This document shows positions 25,083 through 35,102 of a stretch of 37,470 nt of DNA, in pieces. Below the pieces are notes generated by a model. That model was not told where the DNA came from, did no database searches, and worked only from the letters and a program-made list of their open reading frames with translations. Made by a program: the position numbers and the translations under genes. Each line of letters starts with the position of its first letter. The stretch's first letter is position 1. The stretch is from Bacteroidota bacterium (GTDB lineage Bacteria > Bacteroidota > Bacteroidia > Bacteroidales > PUMT01), in assembly GCA_003554865.1 (NCBI GenBank), contig PWHJ01000034.1:1-37470 (forward strand). The letters run 5' to 3'.

Positions 25083-25976
25083 ATGAGCAGAACATCTGAT
25101 TTAGTTGATTCGCATATTTATTTATCGTCCAATCAGGCAGTTACCAAATATGTAGATCTGCAGGAGATCATCAATGAAAGGGAGAGTGTATTTTTGAAAC
25201 GCCTGCCACGTTTTATTGTAAGGCTTCTTGAAAAGATCATCCATCAGGATGAAATTAATACCCTTCTTAAAAAATATGAGGGTTGTAACGGTCAGGATTT
25301 CATTTGGAAAATGATCTCTGAGCTTAATATTAACCTGAAGGTTGAGGGAGAGGAGAATCTTCCCGCTCAAAGCAGGTGTTTTATTGTTGCAAATCATCCC
25401 TTCGGCATAGCTGACGGACTTGCAATTACATCAATAGCCTCAAAAAAGTACGGCGGGTTCAAATCGATAGGCAACGATGTTTATTACTATATTCCCAATC
25501 TCAGGGACAATATTGTGGCCGTTAACGTTTTTGGCAAAAGCAACAGGGAGTATATTCTCAAAGCACTCGATGAGCTGAAGAGCTCCGATGCACCTGTAAC
25601 GCATTTCCCCGCCGGACTGGTTTCCCGTTTGCAAAAAGGGAGGGTCCGCGATAAGCCGTGGCACAAAAGTCTTATTTCAAGGTCAATTTCAACGGAAAGG
25701 CTGGTAGTGCCGGTTTATTTCCATGGGAGGAACTCACTGCTTTTTTATTCCCTGTTCCTTATAAGAAAGCTTTTTCGTCTACCCTTGAATATAGAGCTGA
25801 TACTTCTTCCGCACGAATTCTTCCGCAAACGCAACAAAACAATCAGGGCCAGGATAGGTAAGCCCATTCACTGGCAACGCTTCGATGCGAGTCTGACCCA
25901 CTACCAGTGGGCGCAAAAGGTAAGGGAGTATGTCTATAAAATGGGTAAAACCAAAGGGGATCCGCCCCCTTTTTAA
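25083..25976 (+). CDS. Lysophospholipid acyltransferase-like protein
   Basis: A 297-residue PlsC-superfamily protein. The catalytic motif NHPFGIADG (H105, D111) has the five-residue spacing seen in the OlsA/hemolysin-like branch, and FPAGLVSR near 180 corresponds to the FPEG substrate motif. No clear membrane helix, so probably membrane associated. It could acylate lysophosphatidate, or the O-position of an amino-acid lipid as GlsA does in Bacteroides; the N-acyltransferase partner GlsB is not beside it here. The gene is followed at 25984 by the his promoter and diverges from the copper pair. Confidence 0.85.
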   Translation: MSRTSDLVDSHIYLSSNQAVTKYVDLQEIINERESVFLKRLPRFIVRLLEKIIHQDEINTLLKKYEGCNGQDFIWKMISELNINLKVEGEENLPAQSRCFIVANHPFGIADGLAITSIASKKYGGFKSIGNDVYYYIPNLRDNIVAVNVFGKSNREYILKALDELKSSDAPVTHFPAGLVSRLQKGRVRDKPWHKSLISRSISTERLVVPVYFHGRNSLLFYSLFLIRKLFRLPLNIELILLPHEFFRKRNKTIRARIGKPIHWQRFDASLTHYQWAQKVREYVYKMGKTKGDPPPF

Positions 25977-25983
25977 AAAAATT

Positions 25984-26013
25984 TTGTGGTTAAAATTAAA
26001 TTGTTTATTATTG
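25984..26013 (+). promoter_or_regulatory. Promoter of the his operon leader
   Basis: TTG at 25984-25986 and TATTATTG at 26006-26013 (one mismatch to TAnnTTTG) are 19 nt apart. The start of transcription would fall near 26020, about 16 nt before the leader ATG. Confidence 0.62.
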
Positions 26014-26035
26014 CAGTCATTAAAGAGAAAAGATA

Positions 26036-26098
26036 ATGTACACACTTGCTGCACATACGGGTCATTTTCATCATCATCACCATACCGGAATGAAATGA
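26036..26098 (+). CDS. hisL: his operon leader peptide (20 aa, seven His)
   Basis: An ORF of 20 codons begins at the ATG at 26036 and stops at TGA 26096-26098. His is at positions 7, 10 and 12-16, so five consecutive His codons and seven in total out of 20. AAAGAGAAAAGAT before the ATG is purine rich. The peptide is the sensor of a histidine attenuator: the ribosome would stall on the His run when charged tRNA-His is scarce. It lies between a promoter and a terminator upstream of hisG, and its codons overlap strand 1 of the leader RNA. It is shorter than usual gene callers allow. Composition alone makes chance unlikely. Confidence 0.93.
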   Translation: MYTLAAHTGHFHHHHHTGMK

Positions 26099-26176
26099 TA
26101 CCCCTGTGCAGAATATATTGAGCTTAAAAAAACGAACTAAAAAAAGGCCTGCAAATTCTGCAGGTCTTTTTTTTTT
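26049..26176 (+). promoter_or_regulatory. Transcription attenuator of the his operon
   Basis: Strand 1, CTGCACA plus GGGT (26049-26055, 26059-26062), pairs with strand 2, ACCC plus TGTGCAG (26100-26103, 26105-26111), enclosing the His run. Strand 2 can instead pair through TGCAGAAT (26107-26114) with ATTCTGCA (26155-26162), an 8-bp antiterminator that would break the terminator stem at 26146-26166. A ribosome stalled on the His codons covers strand 1, so the antiterminator forms and the operon is read; otherwise the terminator forms. Pairings are seen; the mechanism follows the enterobacterial his model. Confidence 0.9.
26146..26176 (+). terminator. Intrinsic terminator of the his leader
   Basis: GGCCTGCA (26146-26153) pairs with TGCAGGTC (26159-26166), one G-U pair, 5-nt loop, extended by A-T pairs, followed by ten T (26167-26176). 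It ends 14 nt before the hisG start. Confidence 0.95.
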
Positions 26177-26190
26177 AAATGCAATTATTT

Positions 26191-27045
26191 ATGAGACTAA
26201 AGCTTGCCCTGCAAAAATCAGGAAGGTTAAGTGAAAAATCCCTGGGCATAATCAGCGAGGCCGGTATAAGCCTTACAAACGGTGCCGGAAAACTTGTATC
26301 AAAGGCCGGCAATTTTCCTCTTGAAGTTATGTACCTGCGGGATGACGATATTCCCGGGTGCGTTTCCGACGGAGTTGCCGATGTTGGAATAGCCGGTGAA
26401 AATATAGTGACCGAAAAAAACAGGCCCCTTGAAACTGTTGAAAAACTTGGATTTGCCCGCTGCAGGCTTTCCCTTGCCGTGGACAGGTCGGTTGACTACA
26501 GGGGAACCCAATTTTTCGAGGGAAAGCGTATAGCCACCTCTTACCCCCTTATTCTCGGCAGATTTCTCAGGGAAAACGATATAAACGCCGAGATACATGA
26601 AATTAACGGATCTGTTGAAATTGCCCCGGCCATAGGCTTCTCCGATGCCGTATTCGATATTGTAAGCACCGGGAGTACACTGATGGGTAACGGACTAAAG
26701 GAGGCAGAGACGGTGATGCGTTCACAGGCGGTTATGGTGGCCTGCAGGGAGCTTTCTGATAATAAAAGGAAAATACTTGGGGATTTGCTTTTTCGCCTCC
26801 GGGCTGTGCTTAAAGCAAAAAACAACAAGTATATACTGCTTAACGCACCCAATGAAAAGCTTGATACCATAGCAGATATCCTTCCCGGAATGAAAAGTCC
26901 GACCGTGATGCCCCTTGCAAAGCAGGGTTGGAGTTCGGTACATTCGGTTGTAAGTGAGGAGGAGTTTTGGGAAGTTATAGACAGGCTTCGTGATGCAGGG
27001 GCACAGGGTATCCTTGTTATACCCATTGAAAAGATGATAGTGTGA
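26191..27045 (+). CDS. hisG: ATP phosphoribosyltransferase (long form)
   Basis: HisG joins ATP and PRPP to make phosphoribosyl-ATP, the first and feedback-controlled step of histidine synthesis. I choose the ATG at 26191 (MRLKLALQKSGRL, the family N-terminus, 284 aa); an ATG four codons earlier at 26179 is possible but sits almost on the terminator T run. The catalytic domain has ALQKSGRLSEKS and the PRPP loop region FDIVSTGSTLMGNGL. The C-terminal ACT-like regulatory domain (about 215-284, GAQGILVIPIEKM) shows this is the long HisG that binds histidine itself and needs no HisZ. It is the first gene behind the attenuator. Confidence 0.96.
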   Translation: MRLKLALQKSGRLSEKSLGIISEAGISLTNGAGKLVSKAGNFPLEVMYLRDDDIPGCVSDGVADVGIAGENIVTEKNRPLETVEKLGFARCRLSLAVDRSVDYRGTQFFEGKRIATSYPLILGRFLRENDINAEIHEINGSVEIAPAIGFSDAVFDIVSTGSTLMGNGLKEAETVMRSQAVMVACRELSDNKRKILGDLLFRLRAVLKAKNNKYILLNAPNEKLDTIADILPGMKSPTVMPLAKQGWSSVHSVVSEEEFWEVIDRLRDAGAQGILVIPIEKMIV

Positions 27046-27115
27046 CAGCCTGTGTGGTTAACAAAAAAATAAAAACAAAATTGCCGCTAATTAATAATAA
27101 CAAAAATATAAGCCA

Positions 27116-28438
27116 ATGTTGAAAAAAATTGTACACCCCCCAAAAGAGAAATGGCCTGAGCTGGCGAAAAGGCCTGTGCTCGACACCGGGGAACTGGAAA
27201 GTCAGGTTCGCGACATAATGACTGAAGTAAGGGACGGAGGCGACCGTTCGCTGCTTTATTACAGGGATCTTTACGACAGGGCTTATGGAAATGGCCTGGA
27301 AGTCCCGTTTGAGGAGATGGAAAAAGCCGGTGATGAACTGAGTTTTCAGCTGAAAGATGCCATTAATCTGGCGGCGCGAAATATTGAGAAATTTCACAAA
27401 GCTCAAATGCCCCGGGATATAAATGTGGCTACCATGGCGGGTGTTACCTGCTCGCGTAAATGTCTTCCGCTGGAAAAGGTTGGGCTTTATGTACCCGGTG
27501 GTACGGCTCCTTTGTTTTCCACTGTTTTGATGCTTGCTATACCGGCAAGGATTGCAGGCTGCAGGGAGATAACCGTATGTACTCCCCCCGGTGAGAACGG
27601 CAAGGTGCACCCTGCCATTCTCCATGCTGCCTTTATTTCGGGTGTTACATCCCTTTACAGTGTGGGCGGGGCACATGCCGTTGCTGCAATGACTTTTGGA
27701 ACGGAGACAATCCCGGCGGTCGACAAGCTGTTCGGACCGGGAAACCAGTATGTGACCATGGCAAAGCAGGCGGCTTCTATGTGGGGAACGGCTATCGACC
27801 TGCCAGCGGGACCCTCGGAGCTTGCAATAATAGCAGACACCGGCTCAAACCCCGATTTTGTCTCGGCCGACATACTCTCCCAGGCAGAGCACGGACCCGA
27901 CAGTCAGGTTATACTTACTGCAACAACACAGGAGGTGTTAACCCCGGTTTTTGGGTCCCTGAAAAGGCAACTTCAAAAACTGCCCAGATACAATACCATT
28001 GTGAAATCACTTGAGAACTCGATAGCGCTGGTGTTTGAAGATTATAACACCCTTATGGAGTTTATAAACCTTTACGCTCCCGAACACCTTATAATCAGTA
28101 CGTCAAATTACAGGGAGCTTCAAAGGAATGTAAAAAATGCCGGAACTGTGTTTCTCGGCCGTTTCACTCCTGAAAGCACCGGAGATTATTCTTCAGGGGC
28201 AAACCATACCCTTCCCACCAACGGTTTTGCTAAAGGATGGAGCGGGGTGGATCTGGAGAGCTTTATGAAAAGGGTCACTTTTCAGGAGGTTTCCTCATCC
28301 GGCCTTCCGCTGGTCGGGGAAGCGGCCGAAACGATGGCTTTGGCGGAAGGACTGGATGGACATGCACTGGCTGTGAGTGTCAGGCTTGACCACATTAAAA
28401 ATTCATTGCAGAGACCATGGGAACCGTCTATTCACTGA
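27116..28438 (+). CDS. hisD: Histidinol dehydrogenase
   Basis: HisD carries out the last two steps of the pathway, histidinol to histidine, with two NAD and a zinc ion. The 440-residue length is typical. Visible motifs are YVPGGTAPLFSTVLMLAIPA (about 125-144), the signature GPGNQYVTMAK near 205, the EHGPDSQV zinc/active-site Glu-His near 260, and SAGANHTLPT near 365. Active as a cytoplasmic homodimer. It starts 70 nt after hisG; its end overlaps hisC by 22 nt, suggesting translational coupling. Confidence 0.97.
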   Translation: MLKKIVHPPKEKWPELAKRPVLDTGELESQVRDIMTEVRDGGDRSLLYYRDLYDRAYGNGLEVPFEEMEKAGDELSFQLKDAINLAARNIEKFHKAQMPRDINVATMAGVTCSRKCLPLEKVGLYVPGGTAPLFSTVLMLAIPARIAGCREITVCTPPGENGKVHPAILHAAFISGVTSLYSVGGAHAVAAMTFGTETIPAVDKLFGPGNQYVTMAKQAASMWGTAIDLPAGPSELAIIADTGSNPDFVSADILSQAEHGPDSQVILTATTQEVLTPVFGSLKRQLQKLPRYNTIVKSLENSIALVFEDYNTLMEFINLYAPEHLIISTSNYRELQRNVKNAGTVFLGRFTPESTGDYSSGANHTLPTNGFAKGWSGVDLESFMKRVTFQEVSSSGLPLVGEAAETMALAEGLDGHALAVSVRLDHIKNSLQRPWEPSIH

Positions 28439-29454
28439 TAAGAGAAAATATAAGGGAGCTGGAGCCATACAGTTCGGCCGGTGAAGAATTCAGCGGCGAG
28501 GCCCCTGTAAAGCTGGATGCCAATGAAAATCCCTATGGACGGAAGCTCAACAGGTACCCGGATCCTTATCAGTTAAAACTAAAGGAGAAAATAGCGGAGG
28601 CAAAAGATATCAGTGCCGGTATGATCTTTGCCGGTAACGGGAGCGATGAGGTGATTGACCTTATTATAAGGCTGTTTTGTGAACCGGGCAGGGACAATGT
28701 TCTCAGTATCAGTCCCACATACTCCATGTATGAAGTATTGTCGGCAATTAACGGGGTAGAGTTCAGAAAAGTGATGCTGAACGGGTGTTTTGACCTGGAT
28801 GTTGATGCAATGGTGAAAGCCGCTGACAGTAGCACGAAAGCCGTTTTTCTCTGTTCGCCCAATAACCCCACAGGCAACCTTCTCAGCAGGGAAAAAATCC
28901 TGGAGCTCGCGCGGGGTATTTCAGCTCCCGTGGTGGTTGACGAGGCATATATAGATTTTGCAAAAAGTGAAGGGATGCTCCCTGAGCTGAAAAGCCTGAA
29001 CAACCTTATTATAATCCGAACCTTTTCCAAAGCATGGGGAAAAGCCGGTATACGCCTGGGGGTTGCTTTTGCGGATAGCGCGATTGTCAGTTCACTCAAC
29101 AGGATCAAGCCCCCCTACAATGTTGGCACCCCTGCAATTGAAAAAGCTCTGAAAACTTTAAATAAACCCCGGCGGGTGGCAGCGGTTGTAAAAAAGATTA
29201 TAAATAACAGAAATATGCTTGAAAAAAAGCTTCCCTTCTATAGCTTTGTTAAAAAAGTTTTCCCCTCTGATGCCAACTTTTTGCTTGTAAGGGTTGATGA
29301 TGCACCCTCCCTGTACCGTCACCTTGCCGGCCGGGGGGTGATAGTAAGGGACAGGTCATCGCTGCCCGCCTGTGAAAACTGTTTGCGAATATCGGTTGGA
29401 ACACATTTTGAAAACCGCCGGTTGCTGAGAGCTTTGGATAAATACGATAAATGA
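28417..29454 (+). CDS. hisC: Histidinol-phosphate aminotransferase
   Basis: HisC transfers the amino group of glutamate to imidazole acetol phosphate. A 345-residue class-II PLP aminotransferase. LDANENPYG near residues 33-41 is the family N-terminal block, NNPTGN carries the Asn, VVDEAYIDF the Asp and Tyr, and TFSKAWGKAGIRLG near residue 200 the PLP lysine and Arg. The start ATG overlaps the hisD end by 22 nt; this start keeps the usual distance to LDANENP. hisB follows after 7 nt. Confidence 0.96.
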   Translation: MGTVYSLIRENIRELEPYSSAGEEFSGEAPVKLDANENPYGRKLNRYPDPYQLKLKEKIAEAKDISAGMIFAGNGSDEVIDLIIRLFCEPGRDNVLSISPTYSMYEVLSAINGVEFRKVMLNGCFDLDVDAMVKAADSSTKAVFLCSPNNPTGNLLSREKILELARGISAPVVVDEAYIDFAKSEGMLPELKSLNNLIIIRTFSKAWGKAGIRLGVAFADSAIVSSLNRIKPPYNVGTPAIEKALKTLNKPRRVAAVVKKIINNRNMLEKKLPFYSFVKKVFPSDANFLLVRVDDAPSLYRHLAGRGVIVRDRSSLPACENCLRISVGTHFENRRLLRALDKYDK

Positions 29455-29461
29455 GTTATAT

Positions 29462-30592
29462 ATGGAAAAAAAGAAAGCAATTTTTCTTGACAGGGACGGC
29501 ACTTTGATTGTAGAGCCGCCCGATACCCATCAGGTTGATTCTCTTGATAAGCTTGAATTTTTGCCCGGGGTCTTCCGCAACCTTCACCTGATAGCCTCCC
29601 GGCTTGAACATGAGTTGGTTATGGTGACCAATCAGGACGGGCTGGGTAAAGCTGCCTATCCGGAGGAGACATTCCGCCTTGTTCAGTCAAAAATGGTGAA
29701 AGCCTTTAAAAACGAAGGTGTCTGTTTTAAAGATGTGCTGGTCGACCGCTCCGTGGCCTCAGAGAATAAGCCGACCAGAAAGCCCGGCACCGGCTTGCTT
29801 ACCGGATATATGAAAGGAGATTATGATCTGGGTGGAAGCTTTGTTATTGGTGACAGGCTGACCGATATTGAACTTGCCCGAAACCTGGGGGCCATGGGGA
29901 TTTTGATAGGTGAGCCTTCAAGGAAGGAGGAGGTTGAGCGGTCGGGACTTGAAGATCATTGCGTTATGATAGCTCAAAGCTGGGATGATATTGCCTCTTT
30001 TTTGGTTTTTCCCCCTCGAGAAGCTACTTTGAGCCGCCAAACAGAGGAGACCGATATTTTTGCCCGGTTGAACCTTGACGGCACGGGAAGGGGGGATATA
30101 TCGACGGGACTTGGTTTCTTGGATCATATGCTGGAGCAGATACCGGTACATTCAGGCTGTGATCTGACACTAAAAGCAAAAGGAGATCTTCACAGGGACG
30201 AGCATCATACAATTGAGGATGCGGCAATTGTACTTGGAGAGGTTTTCAGGAAGGCTCTGGGGGAAGGGGGTGGAACTGAGCGTTACGGTTTCGTTTTGCC
30301 AATGGATGAGGCTCTTTGTACTGCGGCACTCGATTTTGGAGGCAGGGCATGGCTTGAGTGGGATGCAGGGTTCAAAAGGGAAAAGATAGGGGATGTGCCA
30401 ACGGAGATGTTCCCCCACTTTTTCCGCTCTTTTTGTCAGCATGCACGCTGCAATCTCCACATAGAAGCAAAGGGAGAGAACGAGCATCACAAGGCAGAGT
30501 CAATTTTCAAATGTTTTGCAAGGGCTATAAAATTGGCGGTAAAAAGAGATAATCTGCAAAAGAGGCTGCCCACAACAAAGGGTCGCTTTTAA
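29462..30592 (+). CDS. hisB: Bifunctional histidinol-phosphatase / imidazoleglycerol-phosphate dehydratase
   Basis: A two-domain enzyme of 376 residues. The N-terminal HAD phosphatase (about 1-165) has DRDGTL (D10, D12), TNQDG and the GDRLTDIE metal site, and removes phosphate from histidinol phosphate. The C-terminal dehydratase (about 185-376) has GFLDHMLEQ, DEHHTIEDAAI and NEHHKAES, the metal-binding His clusters. Fusion is the E. coli-type arrangement, found also across Bacteroidota. It lies 7 nt after hisC; a 74-nt gap precedes the chosen hisH start. Confidence 0.97.
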   Translation: MEKKKAIFLDRDGTLIVEPPDTHQVDSLDKLEFLPGVFRNLHLIASRLEHELVMVTNQDGLGKAAYPEETFRLVQSKMVKAFKNEGVCFKDVLVDRSVASENKPTRKPGTGLLTGYMKGDYDLGGSFVIGDRLTDIELARNLGAMGILIGEPSRKEEVERSGLEDHCVMIAQSWDDIASFLVFPPREATLSRQTEETDIFARLNLDGTGRGDISTGLGFLDHMLEQIPVHSGCDLTLKAKGDLHRDEHHTIEDAAIVLGEVFRKALGEGGGTERYGFVLPMDEALCTAALDFGGRAWLEWDAGFKREKIGDVPTEMFPHFFRSFCQHARCNLHIEAKGENEHHKAESIFKCFARAIKLAVKRDNLQKRLPTTKGRF

Positions 30593-30666
30593 ATACAAAT
30601 GGTGGCTTTTAAAAATAAAAAATGATCAGGCCCCTGCCTGGTCCGCCCTGGAAGAATGTGACGATC

Positions 30667-31254
30667 ATGGGAAAAGAAAATATTGTTATATTAAAATATA
30701 ATGCGGGAAATATCTCATCGGTTTACTCAGCACTTAAAAGGCTTGGGATAAATGCACTTATAACGGGAGATAAAGAGAGGATAAGAAGTGCCTCAAAGGT
30801 AATATTTCCCGGTGTAGGCGAGGCTTCATCAACTATGGCGTATTTGAGGTCAAACGGAATGGACAGGGTGATTTCGGGACTTAAACAGCCTGTTCTGGGC
30901 ATATGCCTGGGGATGCATTTGTTATGCTCTTTTTCCGGGGAGGGCGGCACAACCGGAATAGGTGTTTTCGATGAAGAAGTCAAAAGATTTGTTACCGGCA
31001 AGGTGCCCCATATGGGCTGGAACAGTGTGAGTGGACTAAAGGGGCCTCTTTTCGAGGGTACAGTTTCGGGAACCTATTTTTACTTTGTTCACAGCTATTA
31101 TGTGCCGCCCGGTGAATACTCCGTGGCAGAGAGTAATTATGGGATCAGTTTTGCCGCGGCAATGCAGAGGGATAATTTTTTTGCCACACAGTTCCATCCG
31201 GAAAAGAGTGGTGATGAAGGTGAAGAAATACTAAAACGTTTTATTCAGCTATGA
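30667..31254 (+). CDS. hisH: Imidazole glycerol phosphate synthase glutaminase subunit
   Basis: HisH hydrolyses glutamine and passes ammonia to HisF. I prefer the ATG at 30667 (MGKENIVILKYNAGN, 195 aa), because HisH proteins begin directly with the first beta strand and YNAGN and are about this long; an in-frame ATG at 30622 adds 15 residues of proline-rich, unfamily-like sequence. Class-I amidotransferase triad: C80 in LGICLGMH, and His and Glu in QFHPEKSG near the end. The last codons overlap the hisA start by 4 nt (ATGA), so they are coupled. Confidence 0.95.
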   Translation: MGKENIVILKYNAGNISSVYSALKRLGINALITGDKERIRSASKVIFPGVGEASSTMAYLRSNGMDRVISGLKQPVLGICLGMHLLCSFSGEGGTTGIGVFDEEVKRFVTGKVPHMGWNSVSGLKGPLFEGTVSGTYFYFVHSYYVPPGEYSVAESNYGISFAAAMQRDNFFATQFHPEKSGDEGEEILKRFIQL

Positions 31255-31973
31255 TTGAAATAATACCTGCAATTGACCTTATTGAGGGAAAATGTGTACG
31301 CCTGGAGCAGGGCTGCTTCAGGCGCAAATCGATTTACGGTGCCGATCCTGTGGATATGGCCCGGTGGTTTGAGGATAACGGATTCCGCCGTCTTCATCTG
31401 GTTGATCTGGACGGGGCCGGGGAGGGGAAAATGAGAAACCTTCATATAATGGAGAAAATTGCCTCGGCAACTTCGCTTGTGATAGATTATGGAGGGGGAC
31501 TTAAAACGAGGGAGGATGTAGCTAGTGTCTTCAATGCAGGTGCGGCAATGGTTTGCATAGGCAGTATGGCGGTGAAAAACCGCGGGGAGTTTCAAAAGGT
31601 GCTCTCGGGGTTTGATCCCGTCAATCTCATACTTGCATCGGATGTAAAGGACGGACATATTGCCGTTGCCGGCTGGAAAGAGGAGAGTGGTGTAGCTTTG
31701 AATGATTTTATAAGGCAAAATATTGATTCGGGCATCAGCAAGGTTATGTGTACCGGCATATCAAGGGACGGGACTTTAGAAGGCCCGGATATGGAACTTT
31801 ACAGTCAGGTAACCCGCGATTTTCCCGAACTCTTTGTGATTGCCGGCGGGGGAGTTTCATCTGCCGCCGATATAGAGAGACTTGATGAGCTCTCTTTGTC
31901 GGGTGTAGTTGTGGGCAAAGCTTTTTATGAGAACAAAATTAAAATGAGCGATATAAAAAAATATTTACACTAA
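31251..31973 (+). CDS. hisA: ProFAR isomerase
   Basis: HisA opens the ribose ring of ProFAR by an Amadori rearrangement to PRFAR. A 240-residue TIM barrel. The catalytic Asp of the first strand is in [14 protein letters not shown] (D8), and the second Asp is in [23 protein letters not shown] near 165-176 is the second half-barrel phosphate motif. [13 protein letters not shown] closes the phosphate site. Its start overlaps hisH by 4 nt and hisF follows after 9 nt. Confidence 0.96.
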
Positions 31974-31982
31974 TACCTTATT

Positions 31983-32738
31983 ATGCTGGCCAAAAGAATA
32001 ATTCCATGCCTTGATGTAAAAGACGGGATGGTAGTCAAGGGGGTTAACTTCAAAGATCTTGCAGATATAGGCGACCCTGTTGAGCACGGGGCGATCTATT
32101 CGGCTCAGGGTGCCGACGAGCTTGTTTATCTTGATATTACCGCAACTTATGAAAAACGAAAGTTGCTGACCGGTCTTGTTGGGAGAGTCGCGCAAAAGAT
32201 CTCCATTCCCTTCACTGTCGGCGGCGGGGTAAATAATATTTCCGATGCTGAAATTTTGCTTGATTCAGGGGCAGACAAAATATCCATCAATTCAGCCGCG
32301 CTGAAAAACCCTGATATAATTAACAATATTGCGCGGTTGTTCGGCAGCCAGTTTTTGGTTGTAGCCATTGATGCAAGGAAACAGGACCAGGGGTGGCAGG
32401 TTTACAGTCATGGCGGCAGAACAGCCACGGGCAGGGAATTATTTCAATGGGCCGAGGAGGTACAGGAGAGGGGGGCCGGTGAAATACTTTTTACCTCGAT
32501 GAATCATGACGGAACAAAGAAAGGCTATCCATGCGAAACCCTTGCGGCCTTGTCTGAGAAAATTTCCGTGCCCCTTATAGCCTCAGGGGGAGCCGGCAAA
32601 CCAGAGCATTTTGCCGAGGTCTTCACCCTGGGAAAAGCCGATGCCGCTCTGGCAGCAAGTGTATTTCATTACAAAGAGATAGATATACCGGAACTTAAAA
32701 AATATTTAAATGAGAAAAACATACCGGTCAGATTATAG
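31983..32738 (+). CDS. hisF: Imidazole glycerol phosphate synthase cyclase subunit
   Basis: HisF makes imidazole glycerol phosphate and AICAR from PRFAR and ammonia supplied by HisH. A 251-residue TIM barrel with catalytic D11 in [15 protein letters not shown] and D130 region in [10 protein letters not shown], plus the phosphate motifs VGGGVNN and [11 protein letters not shown]. The AICAR released is also recycled into purines, the pathway of PurB elsewhere in this window. Its end overlaps hisIE by 29 nt. Confidence 0.97.
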
Positions 32739-33348
32739 TCCGCCCCCCGATTTTGAGAAGGGCGGGGGATTGATACCTGCAATAGTTCAGGATGCTTTAC
32801 AGGGAGATGTCCTTATGCTGGGATATATGAACCCTGCGGCACTGGAAGAGACCGAAAGGTCGGGCAGGGTCACATTTTACAGCCGCTCAAAAAAACGCCT
32901 GTGGCAAAAGGGTGAGACAAGCGGCAACTTTCTGGAGGTTGAAAGTATCCGGACAGATTGTGACGGGGATGCTTTGCTGGTGAAAGCTATACCCGCCGGG
33001 GTGGTTTGTCATTCGGGAGATCAAAGCTGCTTCGGAGATACAAGTCGGCCTGGAACAGGTTTTTTAGGTGAACTGGATGCACTGGTACATCGCAGGAAAA
33101 GTGATATGCCGGAGGGATCCTATACTACCGAGCTTTTCAGGGAAGGCGGGGACAAAATAATTCAGAAAACCGGGGAGGAGGCGATCGAGATGATAATCGA
33201 AGCAAAGGGGTCCGACAGGCAACGCTTTCTGGAAGAGGCAGCCGACCTTGTTTATCATCTCACTGTTCTGCTTGCCGCTAATAACTCCTCTCTTGCGGAG
33301 CTTTCAGGTCTTCTTGAAAAAAGGCACAAAAAAAAAAGCCGGGGTTGA
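32710..33348 (+). CDS. hisIE: Phosphoribosyl-AMP cyclohydrolase / phosphoribosyl-ATP pyrophosphatase
   Basis: A fused enzyme of 212 residues for steps 2 and 3 of the pathway. The N-terminal cyclohydrolase (about 1-115) has [16 protein letters not shown], the metal-binding DCDGDA and the Cys pair in [10 protein letters not shown]. The C-terminal pyrophosphohydrolase (about 120-212) has [20 protein letters not shown] and [10 protein letters not shown], a MazG-like Glu cluster. The start ATG lies inside the end of hisF (29-nt overlap). The last 15 bases, including the stop, are repeated directly behind the gene (33353-33367). It is the last gene of the operon; I see no good terminator behind it. 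Confidence 0.96.
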
Positions 33349-33367
33349 AGACAAAAGCCGGGGTTGA
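33334..33367 (+). repeat. 15-bp tandem direct repeat over the hisIE stop
   Basis: AAAAGCCGGGGTTGA occurs at 33334-33348, ending in the hisIE stop codon, and again at 33353-33367, a 19-nt period. It looks like a short tandem duplication. Confidence 0.85.
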
Positions 33368-33556
33368 TTACCCTTGTGGAGGACCACCCGACAGAGATTT
33401 TGGGAAAAAAGTTAAATAAGCTACGGGCAATGACCCCTGTGGAGTGTCATCAGACAAGGATCTCGCGAAACAGGTGGGGGAGGCCGCGGCAAAGAACCGG
33501 GCGGGGACGGGAAAGTTAAAATATTCATTTTAAGATGACAGGTGGTTAATTTTTTA

Positions 33557-33767: not shown

Positions 33768-35102
33768 ATGAGCCCAAAATATTTACTACCGGCATTATTG
33801 TTTCTGATTGCTTTTTCCGTTCTTGCCTATTGCAACAACGGTGAAGTATCCGAAACCGAACAACTGATAGATTATTTCAATGAAAAAGCCATCCAATTAG
33901 AAGATGAGCAGGACCTGGACGAGCTTGTTCATATGGCCGGGGAGAGGGACCTGGTATTGCTCGGGGAGGCAAGTCACGGTACAACAGATTTTTACTCCTG
34001 GCGGGCATCCATCTCAAAACGGCTCATAGAGGAGAAAGGCTTTTCATTTATTGCCGTTGAGGGGGATTTTGCAGCATTATATCACTTGAATAAATATGTC
34101 AAGGATCTGCCGGGTGCTGCCGGTTCAGCCGAAGAGGTTGTGCGGGAGTTTGACCGGTGGCCCGAATGGATGTGGGCCAATGAAGATATTGTAGATCTTG
34201 CCGAGTGGATGCGCGAATACAATGAAGGGCGCGAAAGTGGCGATATGGCCGGTTTTTACGGTATGGACGTTTACGGTCACTGGGAAGCAATGGAAGATCT
34301 TGACAATTATATAAGGGATTACCTGCCCGATTACCGTGAAAAGGCCCAGGAGAAACTTATGTGCTTTGCCTCATACACAGATGAGCATGATTATGCAAGA
34401 GCGGCGGCCAGGGGTCAGGTTGATTGCAGTGAAGAACTTAAAGGTGTTGTGGAGCTTCTAAAGGATAACTCCTCAAGATTGAAGGAAGAGAGTGAAAGGG
34501 AGTATTTCAGGGCTAAGCAAAATGCATATGTAGTAAAGAACGCGGAGGATTTTTACCGTCTTGCCCCCGTTGATGACAACGAGTCCTGGAACAGCCGTGC
34601 AACGCATATGTGGAGAACGGTGCAGCGGATTGCCTCTTACCGGGGAGAGGGAGCAAGGGGCGTCGTATGGGCGCACAATACCCATATAGGCGATGCCCGC
34701 GCCACCTCAATGCATGATGAGAACAGGGTTAATATAGGCGCTTTAAGCAGACAGGAAATGGGCAGGGAAAATGTATTTTCAATTGGTTTCGGCACTTACA
34801 CCGGCACAGTTGCTGCCGGAAGCTCCTGGGGATCACGTATGGAAATAATGGAACTTCCCGAAGGCAGGGAGGAGAGTTATGAGTATATTTTAGGATCTGT
34901 TGATTTGGAGCAGTATTTTTTGATTTTTGACCAGGATGACCGTGATCATGAGCTGTTAAGTGAACGTCGCGGTCACAGGGCTGTTGGTGTTGTTTACAAT
35001 CCGGTGCATGATGCCGGGAATTATGTCCCGACTGTTCTTCCCGAGAGATATGATGCATTTATTTTCATAAGGGAAACCTCTGAGCTGCAGCTGGTAAGAT
35101 GA
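33768..35102 (+). CDS. Exported erythromycin-esterase-family protein
   Basis: A 444-residue protein of the EreA/EreB-like fold. Family motifs are LGEASHGTTDFY (about 65-76, with the catalytic-site Glu and His), FIAVEGDF near 105, and WAHNTHIGD near 303. The N-terminus has a hydrophobic stretch ending LAYC (C22), a signal peptide or a weak lipobox (Tyr before Cys is unusual), so it is likely exported or a lipoprotein. True erythromycin esterases are cytoplasmic, and most members of this wide family have unknown substrates, so macrolide resistance should not be assumed. A CATATTTG box ends only 6 nt before the ATG, which would make a nearly leaderless mRNA. Confidence 0.88.
   Translation: MSPKYLLPALLFLIAFSVLAYCNNGEVSETEQLIDYFNEKAIQLEDEQDLDELVHMAGERDLVLLGEASHGTTDFYSWRASISKRLIEEKGFSFIAVEGDFAALYHLNKYVKDLPGAAGSAEEVVREFDRWPEWMWANEDIVDLAEWMREYNEGRESGDMAGFYGMDVYGHWEAMEDLDNYIRDYLPDYREKAQEKLMCFASYTDEHDYARAAARGQVDCSEELKGVVELLKDNSSRLKEESEREYFRAKQNAYVVKNAEDFYRLAPVDDNESWNSRATHMWRTVQRIASYRGEGARGVVWAHNTHIGDARATSMHDENRVNIGALSRQEMGRENVFSIGFGTYTGTVAAGSSWGSRMEIMELPEGREESYEYILGSVDLEQYFLIFDQDDRDHELLSERRGHRAVGVVYNPVHDAGNYVPTVLPERYDAFIFIRETSELQLVR

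Follow-up and report, generated by a model that had tools for sequence, protein, structure and literature searches.

Attenuation of the his operon by a histidine-rich leader peptide is classic in enteric bacteria. For a long time, most descriptions of leader-peptide attenuation in general came from Proteobacteria and Actinobacteria, and cases in Firmicutes followed later: histidine leader peptides have been predicted in bacilli 5' of hisS and hisZ (PMC2965389) and in three lineages of Firmicutes 5' of his operons (PMC9413887). A survey from 2013 proposed a gamma-proteobacterial origin of amino acid attenuators, with few transfers (PMC3766115), and in a survey of his genes across the superphylum the only mention of attenuation is in the general introduction (PMC8305728). 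For Bacteroidota, the closest description is that of Guerin et al. 2021 (PMC9723704), who mapped the transcriptome of Flavobacterium psychrophilum; the main text reports strong clues of leader-peptide attenuation 5' of amino acid operons and, ahead of hisG, a structured 5' element that is conserved and has no Rfam match.

Here we analyzed the region upstream of hisG in contig PWHJ01000034.1 of a Bacteroidota bacterium, of which the whole stretch of 37,470 nucleotides is referred to as the window. With the attenuator of E. coli and Salmonella (RF00514), the window leader has in common a leader peptide with His codons, alternative hairpins, a terminator, the position 5' of hisG and an eight-gene operon in the same gene order, whereas it differs in having a Bacteroidota promoter, a shorter layout, no Rfam match and an antiterminator that appears to use the terminator loop and 3' arm. 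The leaders predicted in Firmicutes (PMC9413887; PMC2965389) likewise contain at least 3-5 His codons and an attenuator, terminator and antiterminator predicted by comparison, but they belong to another phylum, are narrowly distributed (17 genomes) and have no detectable sequence relation to the window. The F. psychrophilum element (PMC9723704) lies in the same phylum, upstream of the same gene, and is conserved in its family; it comes, however, from another class of the phylum, and the main text describes no His leader strands.

The comparison with the Rfam His leader that the initial annotation proposed did not place the window in that family. RF00514 (cut-off 49 bits) gave no match in the window at gathering score, was not among the matches listed up to E 10, and was found in 0 of 60 genomes of the window's order; the same search matched E. 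coli and Corynebacterium glutamicum, with one control genome above the cut-off. The best permissive Rfam match, Thr_leader (RF00506), was rejected at 29.1 bits against a cut-off of 55, the codons being His and not Thr or Ile, and so were the many other permissive matches in the window, which were at chance level and had only the terminator in common. The window leader would work like the enteric his attenuator and is not a member of the Rfam His_leader family. Its earlier description as a compact version of the enteric leader is thus apt as an analogy; it does not extend to membership of the Rfam family or to the partner of the antiterminator, which appears to be a different one in the window.

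Leader ORF, promoter and terminator upstream of hisG

The elements of the leader and the genes behind it are collected in Table 1. As claimed in the initial annotation, a leader ORF of 20 codons with seven His codons, five of them consecutive, precedes a full his operon: NCBIfam assignments identify the eight genes (26179-33348) as a complete hisGDCBHAF(IE) set in the enteric gene order. Translation of hisG probably begins at the ATG at 26191 and not at 26179, since alignments with HisG relatives begin only near residue 5-7 of the annotated ORF and since 26179 abuts the T run of the terminator. Beyond the operon, short repeated motifs occur in a non-coding stretch just 3' of hisIE (33335-33480; gccggggttga twice, and cccttgtggagga / cccctgtggagtg) and resemble a small repeat element, and an erythromycin esterase family protein is encoded at 33768-35102 (PF05139, E 2e-106; far under the NCBIfam EreB cut-off).

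Table 1. Coordinates of the leader elements and his genes in the window
Feature	Position	Strand	Remarks
-33 element TTTG	25983-25986	+	TTG = 25984-25986; sequence reading
-7 element TATTATTG	26006-26013	+	one mismatch to Bacteroidota consensus TAnnTTTG
Leader peptide ORF	26036-26098	+	20 codons + TGA at 26096-26098; codes MYTLAAHTGHFHHHHHTGMK
Other leader His codons	26054-26056 and 26063-26065	+	read from sequence
Five consecutive His codons (12-16)	26069-26083	+	predicted stall site
Strand 1	26049-26062	+	pairs with strand 2; swap test z -8.2 in the window's class
Strand 2	26100-26114	+	26100-26111 pairs with strand 1; 26107-26114 = antiterminator strand
Predicted antiterminator partner	26155-26162	+	terminator loop + start of 3' arm (ATTCTGCA)
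Intrinsic terminator	26139-26176	+	15-bp hairpin 26139-26173 + T run
hisG	26179-27045	+	TIGR00070, TIGR03455
hisD	27116-28438	+	TIGR00069
hisC	28417-29454	+	TIGR01141
hisB, bifunctional phosphatase/dehydratase	29462-30592	+	NF003937
hisH	30622-31254	+	TIGR01855
hisA	31251-31973	+	TIGR00007
hisF	31983-32738	+	TIGR00735
hisIE, bifunctional	32710-33348	+	NF002747

Six of the seven His codons (codons 7, 10 and 12-16) are CAT and one is CAC. When the 250 nt 5' of hisG were shuffled with dinucleotide composition preserved, an ORF with HH and at least seven His arose in 0 of 5000 shuffles, and one with at least four His in 13 of 5000. The promoter proposed earlier, of the TTG-n19-TAnnTTTG-like form, is likewise present: 19 nt separate TTG from TATTATTG, and 99 of 163 loci have an exact TAnnTTTG no more than 60 nt 5' of the leader ORF, compared to 7% of shuffles.

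The stem described between strands 1 and 2 around the His run was recovered as 7 bp (26049-26055/26105-26111) plus 4 bp (26059-26062/26100-26103), with a pairing probability of 0.99 for the 7-bp part in the unobstructed leader. The terminator 3' of the leader ORF, also part of the earlier description, has a hairpin of -18.8 kcal/mol with the loop AATTC and a T tail until 26176; it is missing from a simple terminator scan of the + strand, whereas folding does recover it. The 8-bp antiterminator that was said to use strand 2 exists as well (26107-26114 with 26155-26162); the initial annotation does not mention that strand 2 pairs here with the loop and 3' arm of the terminator instead of the 5' arm. 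Folding of the whole leader beats that of dinucleotide shuffles (z -5.2, 0/200).

Taken by itself, the terminator is a strong one, and a glsA-like gene on the same strand ends upstream of the leader at 25976. The terminator might do no more than end upstream transcription or insulate the operon, the His-rich ORF being an unrelated small gene or a product of chance. A separate GC-rich hairpin with a T run, located at about 25955-25974 and 5' of the leader, could however mark the end of the preceding transcript, and the shuffles speak against a chance origin of seven His codons. In addition, a His-rich ORF lies directly 5' of the terminator in 163 loci, and strands 1, 2 and the terminator are matched within genomes (see below). 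We consider an insulator or a chance ORF extremely improbable.

His-rich leaders and matched strands in relatives

Loci of hisG were found via HisG in 60 relatives, in 80 named genome contigs, which are mostly from Chitinophagaceae with other Bacteroidota, and in 294 genomes of the window's order; upstream regions were retrieved for a further 80. Altogether, 204 hisG loci, including that of the window, had enough upstream sequence. A short ORF with at least four His, including HH, within 250 nt 5' of hisG was present in 166 of the 204 loci, compared to 1.4% of shuffles. When the same kind of criterion was applied to ATG-started ORFs for each amino acid, His was found in 164 loci, Lys in 17, Leu in 14, and every other amino acid in fewer than 10. 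A terminator follows the leader ORF in 163 of 183 loci. His-rich ORFs are thus found 5' of hisG in most relatives, near and distant. Typical leaders are MNIYTHHHHHTLPKG, MKQFAHIHHHHILPIG, MRFYSRHRVHHHHHHLSG and MLIISATVHHYHHHHSNGME; their flanks vary freely while His is retained (CAT 702, CAC 163), and the stop codon adjoins or falls within strand 2 in the window and most relatives.

Among the 100 loci L112-L211, no His-rich ORF was found in 15, one of which has only 88 nt of upstream sequence. The hisG loci without such an ORF include L148, L155, L159, L167, L173, L174, L190, L193 and L199. Since roughly 15% of hisG loci in the order lack the leader ORF, the attenuator would have been lost, replaced or moved in some lineages. 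Conversely, two complete His-rich leader ORFs in tandem, each with its own terminator, were observed in L018, L019, L112, L116, L119, L127, L132 and L150; in L018, for example, MRTIKAHTALHHHHHHLNGMEK lies at -361 and MKLHTVHHLHHHHWAGIPLWKCCSMP at -154. Read from sequence, these tandem leaders upstream of hisG are predicted his attenuators in series.

Covariation was assessed without alignment by a swap test, in which the pairing of strands from the same genome is scored against that of strands exchanged between genomes. For each locus, we scored how well strand 1 pairs with strand 2 and how well strand 2 pairs with each terminator arm. Across the 95 loci of the window's order, both the 1:2 stem (z -12.6) and strand 2 with the terminator 5' arm (z -12.4) were matched within genomes. 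Thus, the absence of His-rich ORFs and of alternative stems in near relatives, which the initial annotation named as refuting, was not borne out, and the covariation check proposed there supported the attenuator. In Chitinophagaceae, the antiterminator is nearly constant, GGUAGGC pairing with GCUUACC of the 5' arm, and therefore offers little variation to test (swap test p 0.046); in many members of the family GGUAGGC includes the UAG stop codon of the leader. The leader peptides of L032-L111, which are mostly from Chitinophagaceae, have a conserved C-terminal LPxG. This motif is probably an RNA signal: CUUACC...GGGUAG resembles the terminator arm GGCUUACC as a mimic, and the antiterminator strand GGUAGGC contains the stop codon.

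A structured leader and a terminator 5' of hisG would look alike if the leader ORF were real and the choice between the hairpins were made by an RNA-binding protein or by a metabolite-binding fold, such as a riboswitch or a T-box-like element. Three observations argue against such control. No T-box or riboswitch family was found in the window at gathering score; the His-codon run is conserved while other sequence changes, whereas a ligand-binding RNA would conserve its own bases; and the ORF ends beside or inside strand 2 in the window and most relatives. Control by a protein or a ligand is accordingly rated very improbable.

Partner of the antiterminator strand

The window belongs to a class of 30 loci, itself included, whose terminators have a TTTGCAG/CTGCA-type stem. 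Within this class, the 1:2 stem is matched within genomes, and so is strand 2 with the loop and 3' arm of the terminator (z -3.7, p 0.0002; median p 0.003 when each family is represented by a single genome). Pairing between strand 2 and the 5' arm does not differ from chance in the class (p 0.32), and a single antiterminator rule of that kind for all loci was rejected on this ground. For strand 2 of the window, its own terminator is the best of the 30 partners. Furthermore, the loop and strand 2 covary: they read AUUC/GAAU in the window, UUCC/GGAA in L009, AUCC or UCC with GGA in L118 and L127, and AUAC/GUAU in L124 and L149.

These results suggest that in the window and related families the antiterminator may form against the terminator loop and 3' arm, with the loop as a toehold, so that a strand-4 type of his attenuator would coexist with a strand-3 type in one order. 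When the sister genus g2, which clearly uses the 5' arm, is included, the 3'-arm swap test weakens to p 0.0525. Because g2 was set aside only after this weakening had been seen, we hold the variant claim with moderate confidence.

It is conceivable, if somewhat doubtful, that attenuation works and that the window nevertheless forms its antiterminator between TGCAG of strand 2 and CTGCA of the 5' arm, in which case the 8 bp formed with the 3' arm would be incidental. Elsewhere in the order, strand 2 as a rule pairs with the 5' arm (z -10.6 outside the window's class and the sister genus). Such pairing can form earlier in transcription, and a 5-bp version exists in the window, but there it is no better than in shuffles (p about 0.2), as it is at chance in the class. 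The p of 0.05 obtained for the 3' arm with the sister genus included also fits this reading, whereas the 3'-arm pairing of the window is the stronger one (-11.9 versus -7.4) and is matched within genomes. The model below uses the arrangement with the loop and 3' arm.

Predicted switching and significance of the probable attenuator

The behavior of the leader was followed by partition-function folding of growing transcripts, in which all RNA as far as the leading edge of the ribosome is taken as hidden. When the ribosome is stalled at the His codons, the probability of the antiterminator is 0.93-0.94 and that of the terminator 0.00-0.01 at 3' ends 26162-26164, the terminator overtaking later. 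With the ribosome covering the RNA up to 26110, the terminator reached 0.97 at 3' end 26164; without a ribosome, the 1:2 stem reached 0.99 and the terminator 0.97 at 26164. This result is sensitive to the footprint assumed, because an edge at 26107 instead of 26110 still allows the antiterminator to form briefly. In full-length RNA at equilibrium, the terminator is always favored (0.98) and, therefore, the switch has to be kinetic. Without a pause of the polymerase, the window antiterminator stays ahead for only about 2-4 nt; an antiterminator of the 5'-arm type would keep its lead for longer, since that arm is made first.

In the proposed mechanism, transcription would start just 3' of 26013 and a ribosome would translate the 20-codon leader. 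When charged His-tRNA is scarce, the ribosome would stall in the run of five His codons and cover strand 1, leaving strand 2 free to pair with the nascent loop and 3' arm, so that the terminator would be pre-empted and the operon transcribed. When histidine is plentiful, the ribosome would reach the TGA and cover strand 2, and the terminator would form and presumably end transcription. Without a ribosome, the 1:2 stem would form, and the terminator too.

What was observed or computed here comprises the leader ORF and how widely it is conserved, the strands and how they match within each genome, and the dependence of folding on ribosome position; from these we infer that the window leader is very probably a ribosome-mediated transcription attenuator of the his operon that responds to histidine. 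Judged by its sequence, this his attenuator is solid and has phylogenetic support, and its principle is an ordinary one. The attenuator type is known and has a precedent in the phylum in F. psychrophilum (PMC9723704), the only direct one found in a literature search that most subscription papers lay outside. In the mainly open literature covered, no earlier description was found of the breadth of the distribution, the antiterminator families or the tandem copies.

Our results suggest that a His attenuator is the usual arrangement 5' of hisG in a large order of Bacteroidota and in Chitinophagaceae, and that it is invisible to the Rfam His_leader model. If the attenuator works, transcription and translation must be coupled at these leaders; to our knowledge, such coupling is not established for Bacteroidota. 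Two features deserve to be followed up: the putative strand-4 antiterminator and, in relatives, the attenuators in tandem. If the former is real, the strand-4 and strand-3 types would be natural paired variants of one switch. Over 160 natural variants, among them tandem copies and both antiterminator layouts, could provide material for testing how such a switch evolves.
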